Shown one piece after another: positions 7,720 through 31,784 of a DNA stretch of 43,618 bases (positions within the stretch are counted from its first letter, which is position 1; every line of letters begins with the position of its first letter). The notes under the pieces were generated by a model, which had not been told where the DNA came from, did not search any database, and saw nothing but the letters and a program-made list of their open reading frames with translations. The position numbers were made by a program, and so were the translations under genes. Source of the stretch: a virus; IMG/VR virus record IMGVR_UViG_3300025919_000003, positions 1 through 43,618 of that record, one strand, 5' to 3'.

Positions 7720-9567
7720 TCACATCGCCGCGAACGGCGCCTGGAAGTTGCTGACGAACGTCGCCTGCGCCCCGTCGCCGGGGTGAACGCCGTCACCGCT
7801 TCCGCCCGAATAGCTGCCGGTGCTGCCGGCCGTCGCATTGGCCGACATGGTATAGGTACCTACTCCGCCACCACCCGGAGCCGCCGTCAGCGTTGTTCCA
7901 GCCGGGATGCCTGTCCCGGTTATGCTCGATCCAACAAAGACGTTGCCGTTGCCCGTCGTCATGCTGTTGATCACGATCTGGTTGCTGCCATTCGTAACCG
8001 TCGCATTGCAGGTGAAGTTATTCAGCCCGTTGCTGAAATAGGTGCCATAAGGCGGGCTGTTCGGACATGCTCCATCGACGCCTAAATTCGGATCACTGGA
8101 TAGCGCGACGAACGCATCCATGTAGCCGGTCTGGTTGGCGGGCGTGCCCCAATAGCCAGTCCACAGGGCTTTTTCCGCTCCGCGATTGGCGTAGTCGGTC
8201 GTGTCCCAGAACAGGACCTTGCCGCATGCCCTGAGCGCGGTGAGCGTGGCTTTCGTTGCCGTAACCGACGCGCTGCTCGCGATCGGGGCGGTTGCTCCGG
8301 AGCGCTGGTTATAGAACTCGCCATAGGTGCATTTGACGGGAACGCCGATGGTCGTAGCGATGCTCGAAAGTTGTTCTGCTGCAATGATATTGGCACAGTC
8401 CGTCGCGTTTGCACCGATGAATCCAAGATTGCTCCACGCGCCAAATGGGAGAGATAGCGCCGACGCCAACAGATAAGGCCAGCCGTTGCTGCGCCCGGTC
8501 GTACCGTATGTATAGGTGATACTGTCGCCGGTGTTGAGCATGTAATAGCCGGGAGCGGTCCAAGGGTATGCCTGCCCGTAATAATCCCGCACAGCCCTTT
8601 CGGCCTGTAGCGCTTCGTTGAGCGTGAGTTTCTTATTCCAGACGAGGATCTTGAGTATTTCGCCCTTATAGGGTCCGGTTCCGTTGCTGGTCGCCCCGAT
8701 GCCGAGTTGCGAGGTGGTTCCAGTGAATGCCGCCGCCTGCTGGGCGACGATGCTGCCGTTGAGCAGGACCTGGTGTTGCGTCGTATGCCCGCTGAAATAG
8801 GCGGATGTGTATGTCAGCATTCCAGTGGTGAAACCGCTGCTGGTATATGGCACGGTCTCGCTGCCGGATGGCGCACCGGCAGATGAGCCATTGTGCCGCC
8901 AGTTGAGGCCTGTCGAGATGGTCGTGCTGGCGACAAAACCGGAGGTGGAGGTCTGCGCGTTGGTGATCACGACCATGATCGTGACGTTCTTCGCCGCAAC
9001 CGCCGTCATGACCTGCGATGCAGCGCCCGTCAGATATTGCGTCGTGCCGTTGAAGGACAGTGACGGCTTGGTCCCGACAGCATTGTTCTTGTAAGTCGGG
9101 GCAGCTGTTCCGTTGGTCAGGACTTGCGCATTGACGCGATCGGTCCAGCTTGTGACGGCGGTTCCATCGGCCACTACCGCAAGGTCGGTCGTGTCCCAAT
9201 GGCCGATGAGATTGGCCTGAGCGGGCAGGCTCATGGTGACAGAAACGCTGTTCGAAGTTGCCGCCGTCGATCCGCCTGCATTGGTCGCCGTCACGACGCA
9301 GGTCACGTTCGAGCTCGCATCGGCATTTACGAGGGTGTAGGTCGATGATGTGGCGCCACCGATCGATACTCCGCCGCGCTTCCACTGATAAGTGTAGCCT
9401 GTCGGGGAGCCGGTCCATGTGCCGTTATCGGTGGTCAGCACTTGCCCGACCTGGGATGTGCCGGTGACGGCGGGAGCTACGGTGTTGGTCGGCGCTGCGG
9501 CTCCAGCCCCACTGCTTAGAGCAGAGCTACCGAGCCAAAAGCCAAAGCCCATCTTCATCGCGGTCAT
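7720..9567 (-). CDS. SGNH-hydrolase-like virion protein with Ig-like and LamG-like domains
   Basis: 615 residues. The start overlaps the upstream gene as ATGA. Residues about 28-112 are a bacterial Ig-like domain (TYQWKRGGVSIGGATSSTYT type), residues about 115-335 look like a concanavalin/LamG fold, and an SGNH esterase follows: block I GDSI with Ser349, and the C-terminal Asp592 and His595 in DGVHPGDG. A Gly/Thr-rich beta module (about 525-585) is inserted just before that motif. Likely a tail- or capsule-associated deacetylase. It ends the leftward unit, after the lysis genes. Confidence 0.75.
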   Translation of the reverse strand: MTAMKMGFGFWLGSSALSSGAGAAAPTNTVAPAVTGTSQVGQVLTTDNGTWTGSPTGYTYQWKRGGVSIGGATSSTYTLVNADASSNVTCVVTATNAGGSTAATSNSVSVTMSLPAQANLIGHWDTTDLAVVADGTAVTSWTDRVNAQVLTNGTAAPTYKNNAVGTKPSLSFNGTTQYLTGAASQVMTAVAAKNVTIMVVITNAQTSTSGFVASTTISTGLNWRHNGSSAGAPSGSETVPYTSSGFTTGMLTYTSAYFSGHTTQHQVLLNGSIVAQQAAAFTGTTSQLGIGATSNGTGPYKGEILKILVWNKKLTLNEALQAERAVRDYYGQAYPWTAPGYYMLNTGDSITYTYGTTGRSNGWPYLLASALSLPFGAWSNLGFIGANATDCANIIAAEQLSSIATTIGVPVKCTYGEFYNQRSGATAPIASSASVTATKATLTALRACGKVLFWDTTDYANRGAEKALWTGYWGTPANQTGYMDAFVALSSDPNLGVDGACPNSPPYGTYFSNGLNNFTCNATVTNGSNQIVINSMTTGNGNVFVGSSITGTGIPAGTTLTAAPGGGGVGTYTMSANATAGSTGSYSGGSGDGVHPGDGAQATFVSNFQAPFAAM

Positions 9568-25109: not shown

Positions 25110-25925
25110 TCAAGCGGGCTGATCTTCGAAATAGTCCTTAGCGTATTGCGCCTGGAACTTGGCTTTATCGATATCGCGGCCCCGCGCCTTGGCGGCCTCG
25201 TAGAACCGCTCGCACGCTGCTTTCGCGGCAGGAGCCATGTCGGCGAACGTCTTGGTGCGAGGTGCGCTGACGGCGCGCGAGCTGGGAGCGTTGACGCCTG
25301 CTTGGGGCTTGGGTTCGGCCTTGCCGTCCTCGAAATGCTCGGGGAAGCGCTTCTTCACCGCGGCGAGCACCGCTTCGAGCTGCTTGGCGGGGTCGGTGTT
25401 GCCCTTCTTGGCCTGCAACCGGGATTGCGCGATCGCGTATTCGGTCGCGTCTTCATCGGTGCCGTACCAAGGGTTGCTCTTGGCGAAATCGGCCTCCACG
25501 TCATTTGACGCGGGTGGGGCCTGCTCCTGCTCCAGCTTGCGCAGATCTTTGACCGCTTCCGCCGCGCCGGCCTTGTCCTTGTTCTCGACCGCGGATTCGA
25601 AGCGCGACTGGATTTCCGCCAGTTGCTCCTGTACCTCGCGCTTGACCTGCTTGTCGGCGACCGCAACGATCCGCTCGACGCTCGCTTTCAGATCCTTCAC
25701 CTCGCGCTTGAGGTTGCGGTTGTTCGCGTTGGTCGACTTGATCCAGTCGGTCGCCGGCCGCCATTTGGTCGGGTCGCCGTTGTAGCTGGCTTGCGGCTCC
25801 CAGCCCATCTCGGCGGCCAGCGCCTCGACCTCGGACAGCTGCGGGGCTCCGGAGCCATGGTCGCCGCCGTCATTGTCGGCGGCTGGGGTGAGAACTTGGT
25901 CCTCAACAGGTGCTGCGCTGGCCAT
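25110..25925 (-). CDS. Scaffolding-type protein
   Basis: 271 residues, highly helical and charged. A disordered acidic start, a coiled-coil region (about residues 68-135, VKDLKASVERIVAVADKQVK onward) and a short basic/aromatic C-terminal helix that ends KFQAQYAKDYFEDQPA fit internal scaffold proteins, which bind capsid through their C-terminus. Its ATG overlaps the stop of the HslV-like gene (TAATG), so the protease and the scaffold are made together. The protease may remove it from the prohead; that is inference. Confidence 0.75.
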   Translation of the reverse strand: MASAAPVEDQVLTPAADNDGGDHGSGAPQLSEVEALAAEMGWEPQASYNGDPTKWRPATDWIKSTNANNRNLKREVKDLKASVERIVAVADKQVKREVQEQLAEIQSRFESAVENKDKAGAAEAVKDLRKLEQEQAPPASNDVEADFAKSNPWYGTDEDATEYAIAQSRLQAKKGNTDPAKQLEAVLAAVKKRFPEHFEDGKAEPKPQAGVNAPSSRAVSAPRTKTFADMAPAAKAACERFYEAAKARGRDIDKAKFQAQYAKDYFEDQPA

Positions 25926-26371
25926 TATGCGACCTCCTCAAGTCTTGGTGTCAGGTATTCGACTTTGATCCGTCCCCCGGAATGGGGATCGCGCTTACAC
26001 GCGATGTTGACGGCCTCACCGGGGGTCGCGCCGGCCATCATCGCCCCTATGGCGATGTCCTGGCCGCTGCCGATGGCGATGGGCGCTGGCGTGGCGATCT
26101 CGCGGCCCTTGTGATCGACCCACAGGATTCCGTCAGAGGAAAGGATCAGCGCGCCGAAGCGATCATCCTGGACAGGGCAATCGCCTTTTTTTCCGCCTTC
26201 TACCCAAGCGGCCCAGCTGTCAGCATCAAAGCTGCTGCCGGACGCACCCACAATCCTCCCATCTGCCAGGCGGCGCACCTTTGGCCGCGTATGATCGACG
26301 ATCGTTCCGCGGTGATCCACGGCGAGGCCGTCGCCCGCCATGGACTGGCCATCGGTCGCGATCGTGGTCAT
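25925..26371 (-). CDS. HslV-like Ntn-hydrolase (threonine protease)
   Basis: 148 residues. After Met removal the N-terminus is TTIATDG, matching the TTI start of HslV. The HslV/proteasome-beta catalytic set is visible: Thr1, Asp in AGDG (Asp13 after processing) and Lys in KVRRL (Lys30), with GRIVGASGSSFDADSWAAW and FGALILSSDGILW filling the remaining strands. It is shorter than E. coli HslV (about 175) at the C-terminus. No HslU-like ATPase is encoded. Coupled to the GroES-like gene before and the scaffold after, so a role as a prohead maturation or scaffold-removing protease is likely but unproven. Confidence 0.8.
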   Translation of the reverse strand: MTTIATDGQSMAGDGLAVDHRGTIVDHTRPKVRRLADGRIVGASGSSFDADSWAAWVEGGKKGDCPVQDDRFGALILSSDGILWVDHKGREIATPAPIAIGSGQDIAIGAMMAGATPGEAVNIACKRDPHSGGRIKVEYLTPRLEEVA

Positions 26372-26709
26372 TCTGATTCCTCAATAATCGCGATCACATC
26401 CCGGTCCTGGATGAGCCTGTATTCCCTGCCATCGGCGCCGGTTGTCATGACGCCGGCAAGCTTGGCGAACTGCACCGCATCACCCTCTTTCGGGGTCGAG
26501 CCTTCCGGGAAATTGGCGAAGTCGAAACAGGCGGGAGACATGCTCACCACGCGACCCTGGACGCCAGTCAGCCTCTCCTTTTCGCGCACTGCGTCGGGAA
26601 GGTGGATGCTTCCTATCTTCTCGGCGGTTGGAGCGACGGCGACAACCATCGCGAATCCTGTCGCGCGAAGGCCGGGGCGACAATCGGCTAGTGCTGGTAT
26701 TCCACCCAC
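26368..26709 (-). CDS. GroES-like co-chaperonin
   Basis: 113 residues with a GTG start preceded by AAGGAG at good spacing. The pattern follows the chaperonin-10 fold: a first strand region FAMVVAVAP, a mobile-loop-like segment SIHLPD whose I35-H36-L37 matches the hydrophobic I-x-L/V contact with GroEL, the strand TGVQGRVVSMSP, KEGDAVQFAKLAG as the loop after the beta-barrel, and REYRLIQDRDVIAII as the conserved C-terminus. It may replace host GroES for folding capsid proteins, as T4 gp31 does. Coupled by ATGA to the HslV-like gene. Confidence 0.8.
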   Translation of the reverse strand: MGGIPALADCRPGLRATGFAMVVAVAPTAEKIGSIHLPDAVREKERLTGVQGRVVSMSPACFDFANFPEGSTPKEGDAVQFAKLAGVMTTGADGREYRLIQDRDVIAIIEESE

Positions 26710-26737: not shown

Positions 26738-27019
26738 CTATTCGGTAAGGTCTGGTTCTTCTTCCAAGGCGCTGCAAAACGCCTCGTAATCGGTCTCGGC
26801 GATCGCTCGGTAAGCGTCCGCCCGCGTTCTCAATTCGATCAGCAGCGTCTGGTCACTGACCCCCTGCTCCCACGACGCCTGCTCCCACTCCTGCTGCTGG
26901 GCCTGCGCCTGGCGCTCCAGCGCCGCCAGCACCCACTGGGATACCGGATGCGCCCGCCACGTCAGGAAGTCCGCCAACGCCACCGTAGCCTTCGGCTTCA
27001 CCGAGTTGATGTCCGACAT
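26738..27019 (-). CDS. Hypothetical protein overprinted on the portal 3' end
   Basis: 93 residues, ATG 27019, with GGTGGG upstream. The sequence looks protein-like (an N-terminal domain ATVALADFLTWRAHPVSQW, then a Gln/Glu-rich helix ERQAQAQQQEWEQASWEQ, then an acidic C-terminus). Its first 56 codons lie in a different frame inside the portal gene, over the portal's Gly/Ala-rich tail. The rest lies after the portal stop. Likely a head protein. No family recognised. Confidence 0.65.
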   Translation of the reverse strand: MSDINSVKPKATVALADFLTWRAHPVSQWVLAALERQAQAQQQEWEQASWEQGVSDQTLLIELRTRADAYRAIAETDYEAFCSALEEEPDLTE

Positions 27020-29000
27020 CGACGCCCACCTTTGTTGCCATCGCGCCGGCCTGCTGGGCGCGCGCGTTATTGAGTGCTGCCGTGGAGGTTTTCACCGCGA
27101 GCTCGGCGAGAGCCATCGGATCCGGGCCAGACTGCGGCGCGAACAGCGCGTCGATATTCTCGATGCCGGCCGCCTGATAAACGCGGGTCAGCGCCTCTTT
27201 CTGGTCGATCAGCGGGTTGCCCTGCGCCGTCTGCATGACGATCTGCGCCTTCGCCAGCCGTTGCTGCGAGGTGACGGCGGTGGGATCGGCGACCGGCTTG
27301 ATGTCGATGTCCCCGTCAGCAAAATCCTTCTCGAAATTCGCTGCGGGATCGTCGAGCACGTTCATGTAATCTTCGGCAGCTTCATCGCCACCGAAGCGCG
27401 CGATATTGTTGAAGATCAGCGAAAATTCCTGGCCCAGCGAACGATAGATGCGCTTGTAGATAGCCGTGAACACCTGAAGCCCTTGCTCGATCAGCGCGAG
27501 CGTGGTGCCGACGGGGGCCGTGTTCGGCGCATCGCCGGTCGTGATGTCCTTGACGCTGGTGACTTCCTTGGCCGCACCCAGCATCAATTCGAGCAGGTTG
27601 AATATGATCTGCGACGGGTTCGGGAATGTGCGCTCGTAGATGCCATTCCGCAGGTCGCCACCTGCGACGTTCACAACCTTATATTCGCCGGGCATCCAGC
27701 GCATCGTCTCGGTTCGATTGTTCGACTGCAGACGGAGCGATGCGGCAATGAAGCCGCCACCCGCAATCTGGGCATGGCCTGCGTCGAGTATCTGGTTGAT
27801 CGCGGCGTTGATGACATCGCCTAGTTGCTCAATCAGGTGGCCGAAGCCGATATCGTAGAAGCCGCCCTTCGGATCGGGCAGGAACGGATATTTGACGTAG
27901 AACTGCTCTTTATCGATGCGGGCGATCGTGCCGTCGGCGTTGACCTTGACCTGATCCGGGCCGAAATTGGCTTCCAGCTTCAGAACCTGGCTCGTCTCCT
28001 TGTCGACCGTGACGATATAGGGCTCGTCGACGCCATCATCGTCCAGGTCGAGCAGGCGGTGCTGTTCGAGCAACAGCCGCGGTTCTTCCATATCATCGCT
28101 GGGCGACGGGAAATCGACCGTTCGATATTCCTTTGCGTTCATCCGCTGGCGCAGCTGATATGGATAAACGTTCGACATGCGCTCGGTGGCGCGCGGCGTC
28201 GTCTCCAGGCTCTTGGCCGACATCGGCACGACCAGATCCAGCGCGGGGATGTAGGCGGCCTTCTGCTCGCCCTCGGCCCACCACAGCTTGCGGAAGCCGC
28301 AGCCCACGATCGGGACCTGCATCAGCATCAGGTCGGTATCTTCCTCCCAATCGTCCATGCGAAATTCGAGATAGACGTTGAGATAATCGGCGACGCGATC
28401 GGCGCGCGCTTGCTTGGCGCCCGGCGGGATCTGCCACAGCGGCTGCGGTTCGGGGAGATCTGGCTGGCCTGGTTGGCCTGGCGCCGGCGGGGGTGCGCTG
28501 GCTTGCGCCTGCTGCATCGCGGCCTGAGCGGCGCTGATCGTCATGGGCTGGCCGTTGACCGAAACCAGCGGCTCACCGGATTGCGGATCAACCTGCGGGC
28601 GGCCCTTGTCGGAGCCGATCACCTTCACCCGCACCATCTCGCCGGGCTTGCAGATCGCGGGATAGGAGCGCGCGTTAAATTGCTGCGCGGCCACGGTCAG
28701 AATCGGATAATCAACATGGCTGCGGCGGTATGGCGGCGGGTTTTCGGGCAGGTTCTTTTCCTGCGCGGCCCGGGCAAGTGCCTTCGTGACCGTTTCTTCC
28801 CAGTCGTGCCGATCCTGGCAGTCGCGATCGTAATCCTGGACGACATCCGCGCCGATCTTGGTCAGCGTCTGCTCATCGAGCATGTAGGAAATATCGCCGC
28901 GCGACTGGGCGATTTTCGCGATTAGGGTCAGCGGCCCCGCATCATTCGCAGGCGTGTCAACGTCCGCGTCTTCCGCAACGATTGGGGCCGCTGAAGCCAT
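26853..29000 (-). CDS. Portal protein (P22 gp1-like)
   Basis: 715 residues, near the 725 of P22 gp1. The N-terminal third includes LARAAQEKNLPENPPPYRRS and a helical stem region; the middle carries the short motifs YPFLPDPKGGFYDIGFGHLI and INQILDAGHAQIAGGG; the C-terminal part shows a long helix (TAIYKRIYRSLGQEFSLIF) of the crown/barrel, and a Gly/Ala/Pro-rich tail (residues about 640-715) overprinted by the next gene. It forms the dodecameric DNA channel at one vertex, and docks the gp4-like adaptor and the terminase. Confidence 0.9.
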   Translation of the reverse strand: MASAAPIVAEDADVDTPANDAGPLTLIAKIAQSRGDISYMLDEQTLTKIGADVVQDYDRDCQDRHDWEETVTKALARAAQEKNLPENPPPYRRSHVDYPILTVAAQQFNARSYPAICKPGEMVRVKVIGSDKGRPQVDPQSGEPLVSVNGQPMTISAAQAAMQQAQASAPPPAPGQPGQPDLPEPQPLWQIPPGAKQARADRVADYLNVYLEFRMDDWEEDTDLMLMQVPIVGCGFRKLWWAEGEQKAAYIPALDLVVPMSAKSLETTPRATERMSNVYPYQLRQRMNAKEYRTVDFPSPSDDMEEPRLLLEQHRLLDLDDDGVDEPYIVTVDKETSQVLKLEANFGPDQVKVNADGTIARIDKEQFYVKYPFLPDPKGGFYDIGFGHLIEQLGDVINAAINQILDAGHAQIAGGGFIAASLRLQSNNRTETMRWMPGEYKVVNVAGGDLRNGIYERTFPNPSQIIFNLLELMLGAAKEVTSVKDITTGDAPNTAPVGTTLALIEQGLQVFTAIYKRIYRSLGQEFSLIFNNIARFGGDEAAEDYMNVLDDPAANFEKDFADGDIDIKPVADPTAVTSQQRLAKAQIVMQTAQGNPLIDQKEALTRVYQAAGIENIDALFAPQSGPDPMALAELAVKTSTAALNNARAQQAGAMATKVGVDVGHQLGEAEGYGGVGGLPDVAGASGIPVGAGGAGAPGAGPAAGVGAGVVGAGGQ

Positions 29001-30173: not shown

Positions 30174-31784
30174 TCAATATCCTGCGGTTGATGCCGGTCT
30201 ATCATAATCGCGCTCGGTTTTCTCGAACGCTTCCGCGAACATCGGTACCGCGAATGTGAGCGCCAGCGCGTCGCCCAGATCGGGCGAGAAGCCCATGCGC
30301 TTGCGGATGCTATCCTTGCTCTCGATCACGAGCTCGTTGTTCGATTTGTGCCGCGTCTGGCCCGCTCCCCAAGCAGGCGACGTCAAATCGGCATGCAACG
30401 TGTCGTCGTCTGGAATTTGCACACCTGCCGGATCGTTGAACCAGTCGCGCATCACATCCCACATCTCGGCGCGGCGGTTCTCATATAGCTCGTCTCCGGT
30501 CGGCCCGATTCCAACGGGCGAACTGCCGAAGTTGACCGGGTTGACCTGATGGAAGCCCATCTCGCGCAAGCGGTCGTAAATTCCGGCACCTAGGCCGCCC
30601 ACGTCGACATTCACCGCGGCGGGTTGGTGCAGTCTGATCAGGTTGGCGATACGGCCCACGATCACCATCGTGTCGTCTAGGTCCCATATTTCGCTGATCA
30701 GGTGACCAACGCGACGACCGCGGCGATCGACAACGCCGGTCTTGTCTCCCCCGCCTCGCGCCGGATCGACGCCGATTATCAGGGGCCCGACCGGGAGCAC
30801 GGGATTGCGTGGCTTGCGTGCCGTCGCGACCTTGAGCGAAGGAATGAAGCTGTTTCCGGCGGTCTGGAACGCCTCCTCGGCCGTCGAGGGATATTCCTGC
30901 TTGAACTTCCAGCACGGCGTGTCCTCGGTTTCGCCCGTAGCCGACGCCATGTCGCGGTTCTTGTTGTAGGCCCAATATAGCTGAAACCAGTCGAGATTGT
31001 TGCGCTCGGCATAATCATCCCAGCTTTCGCGGGTGTCGGCATCGCCAGCAACGTGCGGCGGCTCCCATCCATCCGGCGGCTCCAGCCGGTATTCGTCCGA
31101 CCAGAACCATGGCATGAACACCGGGAGGTATGAGCTTCCGCGCTGGGCGGCGGCGTATCGGCGCTGAAACAGGTTGCCGATGCCGTTCCCGGTGCTTTCG
31201 AGAATAGCCTCTGTGCCGTCCACGTCGGCAAGCGCCTGCTCAAGCCCGGCGACATGATCCTCGGCATTGGGCCAGAATGCGACTTCCGAACCGTGCCATA
31301 GCTGCATCGTCGCCGATCGGCCGACTTCCTTCGTGCCAGCCGTGGCGACGCTGTATGAGCAATCGCGCCCGGCGAAGGCGAGTTCCTTGGCGTTGGCCGA
31401 TTGTGTCGGGTGAGCGAGCGCAGGCGGGACGTTATCGTGGTAGCGCTTCGCCATCGAGAACAGGTTGTCGGTCGCCGCCTGCTCGTGCGTCAGGATGAAG
31501 GCCCGCAGCCCCTTTCCGCCCCACAGGCGCCAGTAGAACCGCCCCTCGATGTACGTCGACGCGCCCATCTGGCGGCCCTTGACGATGATCGCGCGAACCC
31601 GGCCTTTCTCGCGGCGCTGCTTTTCCAGGCAGTCGTGAAGATGGCGCTGTGCTTTGTTGAGGATCAGCGGCTCAAGCTGGCCGGCCTTGGACCTGATGCG
31701 CAGGCAGTGGCGTGCGAAATACTCAAAGTCATCCCGCAGCCTGCGAAGTTTTTCGCGGTCGAAGTCAGCCGTCGAGTTGGTCAA
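30174..31784 (-). CDS. terL: Terminase large subunit
   Basis: 536 residues. ATPase domain: the Walker A-like KGRQMGAS (69-76) and a Glu in AILESTGNG (Glu196). C-terminal nuclease: Asp340 in GVDPARGGGDKTG and Asp394 in VNVDVGGLGAG, with a final DALALTFA near the C-terminus. This is the motor that pumps DNA and cuts concatemers; P22-like relatives use headful packaging, which fits the circularly permuted map. It overlaps the small terminase by 20 nt. Confidence 0.95.
   Translation of the reverse strand: MTNSTADFDREKLRRLRDDFEYFARHCLRIRSKAGQLEPLILNKAQRHLHDCLEKQRREKGRVRAIIVKGRQMGASTYIEGRFYWRLWGGKGLRAFILTHEQAATDNLFSMAKRYHDNVPPALAHPTQSANAKELAFAGRDCSYSVATAGTKEVGRSATMQLWHGSEVAFWPNAEDHVAGLEQALADVDGTEAILESTGNGIGNLFQRRYAAAQRGSSYLPVFMPWFWSDEYRLEPPDGWEPPHVAGDADTRESWDDYAERNNLDWFQLYWAYNKNRDMASATGETEDTPCWKFKQEYPSTAEEAFQTAGNSFIPSLKVATARKPRNPVLPVGPLIIGVDPARGGGDKTGVVDRRGRRVGHLISEIWDLDDTMVIVGRIANLIRLHQPAAVNVDVGGLGAGIYDRLREMGFHQVNPVNFGSSPVGIGPTGDELYENRRAEMWDVMRDWFNDPAGVQIPDDDTLHADLTSPAWGAGQTRHKSNNELVIESKDSIRKRMGFSPDLGDALALTFAVPMFAEAFEKTERDYDRPASTAGY

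Follow-up and report, generated by a model that had tools for sequence, protein, structure and literature searches.

The late head operon of the viral sequence analyzed here (43,618 nucleotides, the whole of which we call the window) carries a gene for a small proteasome homolog that fits the published PPH family, and that is absent from close relatives possessing the same head module. With moderate confidence, we consider this protein to be an accessory, mobile, late-expressed proteasome homolog, independent of HslU and acting in the infected cell. The initial annotation had described the gene as an HslV-like threonine hydrolase that may work alone inside the prohead. The assignment as a hydrolase of this kind was supported by the fold and by the intact catalytic residues. 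The enzyme is not of a new type, PPH having already been published; as detailed below, a maturation role inside the prohead was not supported.

The annotated gene was confirmed as a single open reading frame (Table 1), and the protein encoded at 26371-25925 begins MTTIATDGQSMAGDGLAVDHRGTIVDHTRPKVRRL. Along the minus strand, the head operon reads TerL, portal, small gene, GroES-like, PPH, scaffold, two more genes and MCP. The stop codon of the GroES-like gene overlaps the start of PPH (ATGA), while the stop of PPH overlaps the ATG of the scaffold gene (TAATG), in keeping with the earlier remark that PPH lies directly before a scaffold-like gene. Given these two overlaps, PPH is expected to be co-translated with the head genes. 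The scaffold itself must be considered putative, since no PHROG scaffold family matched this gene. The module had been termed 'P22-type', but this holds only loosely, in that portal, scaffold and coat are separate; it is not a matter of family, as the portal is of the SU10 type and the MCP belongs to the Phage_capsid_4/Mu gpT group, not to a P22 coat family.

Table 1. Genes of the head operon and adjacent features in the window
Feature	Coordinates	Strand	Basis of assignment
TerL (terminase large subunit)	30174..31784	-	phrog_2 E 8.2e-27
Portal protein	26853..29000	-	SU10_portal PF23899; phrog_1216 E 3.3e-18
Small gene, function unassigned	26738..27019	-	between portal and GroES-like gene
GroES-like co-chaperonin	26368..26709	-	Cpn10 PF00166 24.7 bits (cut-off 21.1); phrog_3188 E 4.5e-11
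PPH-family proteasome homolog, 148 aa	25925..26371	-	phrog_1040, AlphaFold2, Foldseek, 32-row alignment, PMC8665760 family definition
Putative scaffold, 271 aa, coiled-coil-like	25110..25925	-	position between portal and MCP; alignment with relatives
MCP (major capsid protein), 304 aa	22999..23913	-	Phage_capsid_4 E 1.1e-12 (Phage_capsid_4 / Mu gpT-like)

A few other features of the operon were recorded. More than 140 bases of the small gene lie within the 3' end of the portal gene, in a different reading frame, and this overlap is also kept in at least one relative (L016, 7381-7638). The GroES-like gene is a near-constant presence between portal and scaffold (L016-L030, L101, L106, L113), recurring in head modules whose MCPs span 98% to about 41% identity. 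A ribosome-binding-like sequence ending CGCATAATGG precedes the scaffold start (25925-25945 in the window); the window and the sibling locus L103 have this element in the 3' end of PPH, and the relative L022 has it in the 3' end of GroES (~7980-8010). It looks as if the PPH cassette had been joined in a way that left the translation of the scaffold undisturbed.

The PPH protein matched PHROG 1040 ('peptidase HslV family') with an E-value of 2.9e-32, and a sequence comparison with the solved HslV chains in the PDB gave a weak match (E 3e-4). An AlphaFold2 model, obtained from a 32-sequence alignment, had a pLDDT of 95.9 and a pTM of 0.88, and its top Foldseek matches were HslV structures (E 2e-9, probability 1.0), followed by proteasome subunits and BPH. 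The predicted structure thus bears out the Ntn fold anticipated by the annotation; structural alignments with solved HslV chains showed just 18-27% identity. The score against the Pfam Proteasome model (PF00227) was 17.9 bits, below the gathering score of 22.4, the strong structural match notwithstanding, while the score against the HslV equivalog model TIGR03692 was 18.4 bits, far under the cut-off of 157.75.

The TTI start and the AGDG and KVRRL motifs, previously read as the sites of the HslV-like Thr, Asp and Lys, aligned as proposed: Thr2 of PPH corresponds to the mature Thr1, Asp14 to Asp17, Lys31 to Lys33 and, in addition, Gly45 to Gly47. There is no propeptide, the Thr being encoded by codon 2. 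Across the alignment of 32 relatives Thr, Asp and Gly were invariant and Lys was found in all sequences except one (31/32), with the conservation of Thr and Asp partly forced by the search patterns, which included these two residues.

Despite sharing the Ntn fold and the above motifs with HslV (ClpQ), PPH differs from it by falling under the equivalog cut-off, by lacking the second helix (H2) and by the absence of HslU from the record. The model shows one helix (47-58) before strand 73-78, and then helices 104-112 and 117-127; in a pairwise alignment, the stretch from H1 to the next strand was 13 residues long, as compared to 31 in S. aureus HslV. The HslU-docking pocket of HslV comprises F54, F57, A79, K80 and Q114, and Ala79/Lys80 are among the residues that take the HslU tail (PMC6429459). 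Both A79 and K80 fall in the stretch that is absent from PPH, leaving the docking pocket incomplete. A search with the HslU model TIGR00390 found no match in IMGVR_UViG_3300025919_000003, as the annotation had stated, or in six related records. PPH may use a host HslU.

The published PPH family (PMC8665760) comprises proteins of about 140 residues without H2, occurring in phages and their hosts; that survey reported no genomic context suggestive of function. The window protein shares with the family the length class (~140-148 aa), the Thr/Asp/Lys triad, the lack of H2, the occurrence in tailed phages and the lack of an AAA+ partner, and we noted no structural difference. It thus appears as a new member of a known family, rather than a new kind of enzyme. 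The slot before the scaffold gene in a late head operon, in contrast, is undescribed in that paper.

To see how the gene is distributed, relatives of the module were gathered through the MCP, independently of PPH. L016 (whose MCP is 91.8% identical to that of the window), L022 (79%), L017 (77%), L018 (69%) and L019-L021 (63-65%) all have the same portal-GroES-scaffold-MCP order, with GroES running straight into scaffold and no PPH. A PPH profile search in the records of L016, L017, L018, L021 and L022 (not certified complete) returned nothing, and PPH was not found anywhere in the 44.6 kb L022 record. Among the MCP-collected loci spanning portal to MCP, none had PPH between the two. The presence of PPH is therefore patchy. 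Carriers and non-carriers showed no material difference in MCP length or N-terminus, the latter being near-identical in the relatives devoid of PPH, and no carrier-specific segment was found in the scaffold alignment. Relatives close enough to share almost the entire shell protein sequence thus do without PPH, which is probably an optional extra.

The closest sibling module, L103, has an MCP 97.7% identical to that of the window and a PPH in the same slot, but the two PPHs are only 46% identical, versus 66-82% for portal, GroES and scaffold. These data weakly suggest an exchange of PPH relative to L103, an effect that fast PPH evolution could mimic. The L103 PPH (L103:6316-6756) keeps Thr1 and Asp17 but has Arg at the position of the catalytic Lys33. 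In yeast beta5, the K33R replacement eliminates chymotrypsin-like activity (PMC4792962), and the L103 PPH is predicted to be inactive.

Two further loci, L114 and L109, encode PPH plus an annotated head maturation protease (phrog_976, E 3e-42; phrog_530, E 3e-84). Such proteases are likewise found in or beside head modules, but their family assignment is unrelated to that of PPH, and they coexist with it instead of being replaced by it. PPH, then, is neither conserved with its head module, being absent in L016-L022, nor does it stand in place of another maturation protease, L109 and L114 having both. Together with the loss of the Lys in L103 and the location of PPH outside the head module in several phages, these findings argue against PPH being the obligatory prohead maturation protease, and the proposal that it works in this capacity, alone inside the prohead, was not supported. 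Comparison of the window and L103, which have the gene, with L016 and L022, which do not, speaks against an essential capsid protease; position alone is insufficient to name phage 'HslV' genes prohead proteases.

In the PPH gene tree, the window sequence grouped with L098 and L099 (support 100/99). The PPHs of these two loci are 64-66% identical to that of the window, but the loci belong to other types of phage with unrelated head modules; their TerLs are only 39% and 35% identical, and PPH lies after the portal gene in L098 and before the small terminase gene (TerS) in L099. A clade uniting the window and L103 PPHs was rejected weakly (p-AU 0.038). In view of these incongruent relationships, we consider PPH to be probably a mobile accessory gene, passed between phages as a single cassette.

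We examined some 25 distinct loci, assigning genes mostly by eye and in some cases by PHROG. PPH was found before TerS, before TerL, in the TerL-portal interval, after portal or beside GroES, while a few loci had no such neighbor. A prophage of Sphingomonas asaccharolytica (L128) likewise carries PPH in its packaging/head operon. (The collection search for PPH relatives used a closer three-sequence alignment, another alignment being too divergent.) Among the 12 IMG/VR records having both a phrog_2 terminase and PPH, nine had PPH within 4 kb of TerL, where 3.2 were expected (P 4.8e-4; 96 of 200,000 random placements), a result that is suggestive but not final, because independence of the records was assumed and the 4 kb limit was set once the loci had been seen. 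PPH adjoins GroES in the window, L101, L103, L106 and L113. A specific PPH-GroES pairing was considered but has little behind it: GroES occupies the portal-scaffold interval in any case, and its proximity to PPH is weak evidence by itself.

Other phages have the gene in different surroundings. PPH is about 6-7 kb after portal in the two Dolichocephalovirinae jumbo phages examined, follows PhoH far from TerL in Stephanstirmvirinae, adjoins holin and endolysin in Jerseyvirus, lies beside primase or RNA ligase in Erythrobacter phages and, in Vibrio phage VpV262, occurs in a metabolic region, the structural genes being on the other strand. The HslV-family proteins of Jerseyvirus, Stephanstirmvirinae, CcrColossus and VpV262 are homologous to that of the window (mostly 24-37% identity over nearly the full length), but their genes are outside the head module, next to holin/endolysin, PhoH/lysozyme or hypothetical genes, or in a metabolic operon.

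As for how an accessory PPH could operate, the cassette, slotted into the late head operon, would be translated alongside the GroES-like and scaffold genes. Late expression is favored by the two start/stop overlaps and by the closeness to TerL in the IMG/VR records. By analogy with HslV and the proteasome, from which we infer Met removal, oligomerization and activity alike, the start Met would be cleaved off to expose Thr1, and the subunits would form rings; these would assemble without HslU, given that H2 and part of the HslU-docking pocket are absent. The resulting particle might act, independently of ATP, on unfolded proteins or peptides of the phage or host late in infection, presumably in the cytoplasm of the infected cell, although both this site and the target are guesses. 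In the literature, we found no activity reported for any PPH, and the structurally related Anbu showed no detectable peptidase activity (PMC6376114). A literature search for virion proteomics of PPH-carrying phages yielded nothing usable: the phiCbK paper contains no reference to Ntn, proteasome or protease, the rV5 paper is silent on both proteasome and HslV, and no papers joining 'HslV-like' and 'bacteriophage' were retrieved.

The recurring placement by packaging and head genes could signal a real role in head formation or packaging. It is conceivable, albeit unlikely, that PPH is a protease linked to packaging or to the head, repeatedly inserted beside TerS, TerL, portal, GroES or scaffold in small-genome phages. 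The repeated independent insertions would then be explained by PPH acting on head-assembly proteins, for example by clearing misfolded capsid protein with the neighboring GroES-like co-chaperonin, and PPH would be the first proteasome homolog, as far as known, with a role in virus assembly. Another reading, which we rate as quite improbable, has PPH packaged into the prohead as a facultative protease that digests the scaffold and hastens its exit, while relatives lacking PPH would release the scaffold intact. The location between the GroES-like and scaffold genes (window, L103) or near portal/scaffold (L101, L106, L113) and the positional enrichment near TerL are consistent with this possibility, as is the fact that most carriers examined have a separate scaffold and no recognized classical protease, judging partly by eye. 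However, the same module exists without PPH, the scaffold lacks a carrier-specific element, and the position relative to the scaffold ranges from before TerS to after GroES; moreover, PPH occurs alongside the annotated maturation proteases of L109 and L114, and the Lys33-to-Arg change that removes chymotrypsin-like activity in yeast beta5 is found in L103, the locus with the 97.7% identical MCP.

Two other explanations place the function of PPH elsewhere. A non-degradative or highly specific enzyme (an endoprotease, an amidase or a connectase-like ligase), whose substrate would be a single protein of the phage or host and whose role might be, for instance, in counter-defense, would suit a family with diverse architectures, in which connectase is a ligase (PMC8665760), as well as a gene that is mobile and accessory like many counter-defense genes. 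Nevertheless, its active site is laid out as in HslV and no defense-related neighbors were recognized among the loci examined, and we deem this option improbable to much the same degree as the prohead-internal one. Interference with host HslVU, whereby PPH subunits would enter the HslV rings of the host or vie for host factors and so alter host proteolysis, strikes us as very unlikely. PPH does have the HslV fold and no ATPase of its own. When 299 Sphingomonadaceae genomes were surveyed, only two clear PPH matches were obtained (G042, G043), along with seven of lower score, about 56 bits, that are probably host HslV. Yet PPH has low identity to solved HslV chains and is missing both H2 and part of the HslU pocket, which disfavors such mixing.

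The recurring placement of PPH in late operons, on the packaging side, is new and provides a testable lead for function, as do the naturally occurring pairs of relatives that differ in having PPH. Some divergent forms of the gene were also observed. Seven distant members of the MCP-collected set, all environmental phage contigs (L071, L075, L079, L080, L084, L092 and L095), have a divergent PPH-like gene (L079:11278-11712) shortly downstream of MCP, in the opposite orientation and adjoining a 116-aa gene. Long C-terminal extensions occur in Stephanstirmvirinae, where the PPH of Klebsiella phage FBKp34 (L006:8001-8915) reaches 304 aa and that of L005 (L005:8001-8654) 217 aa; these extended versions resemble the published RPC group.
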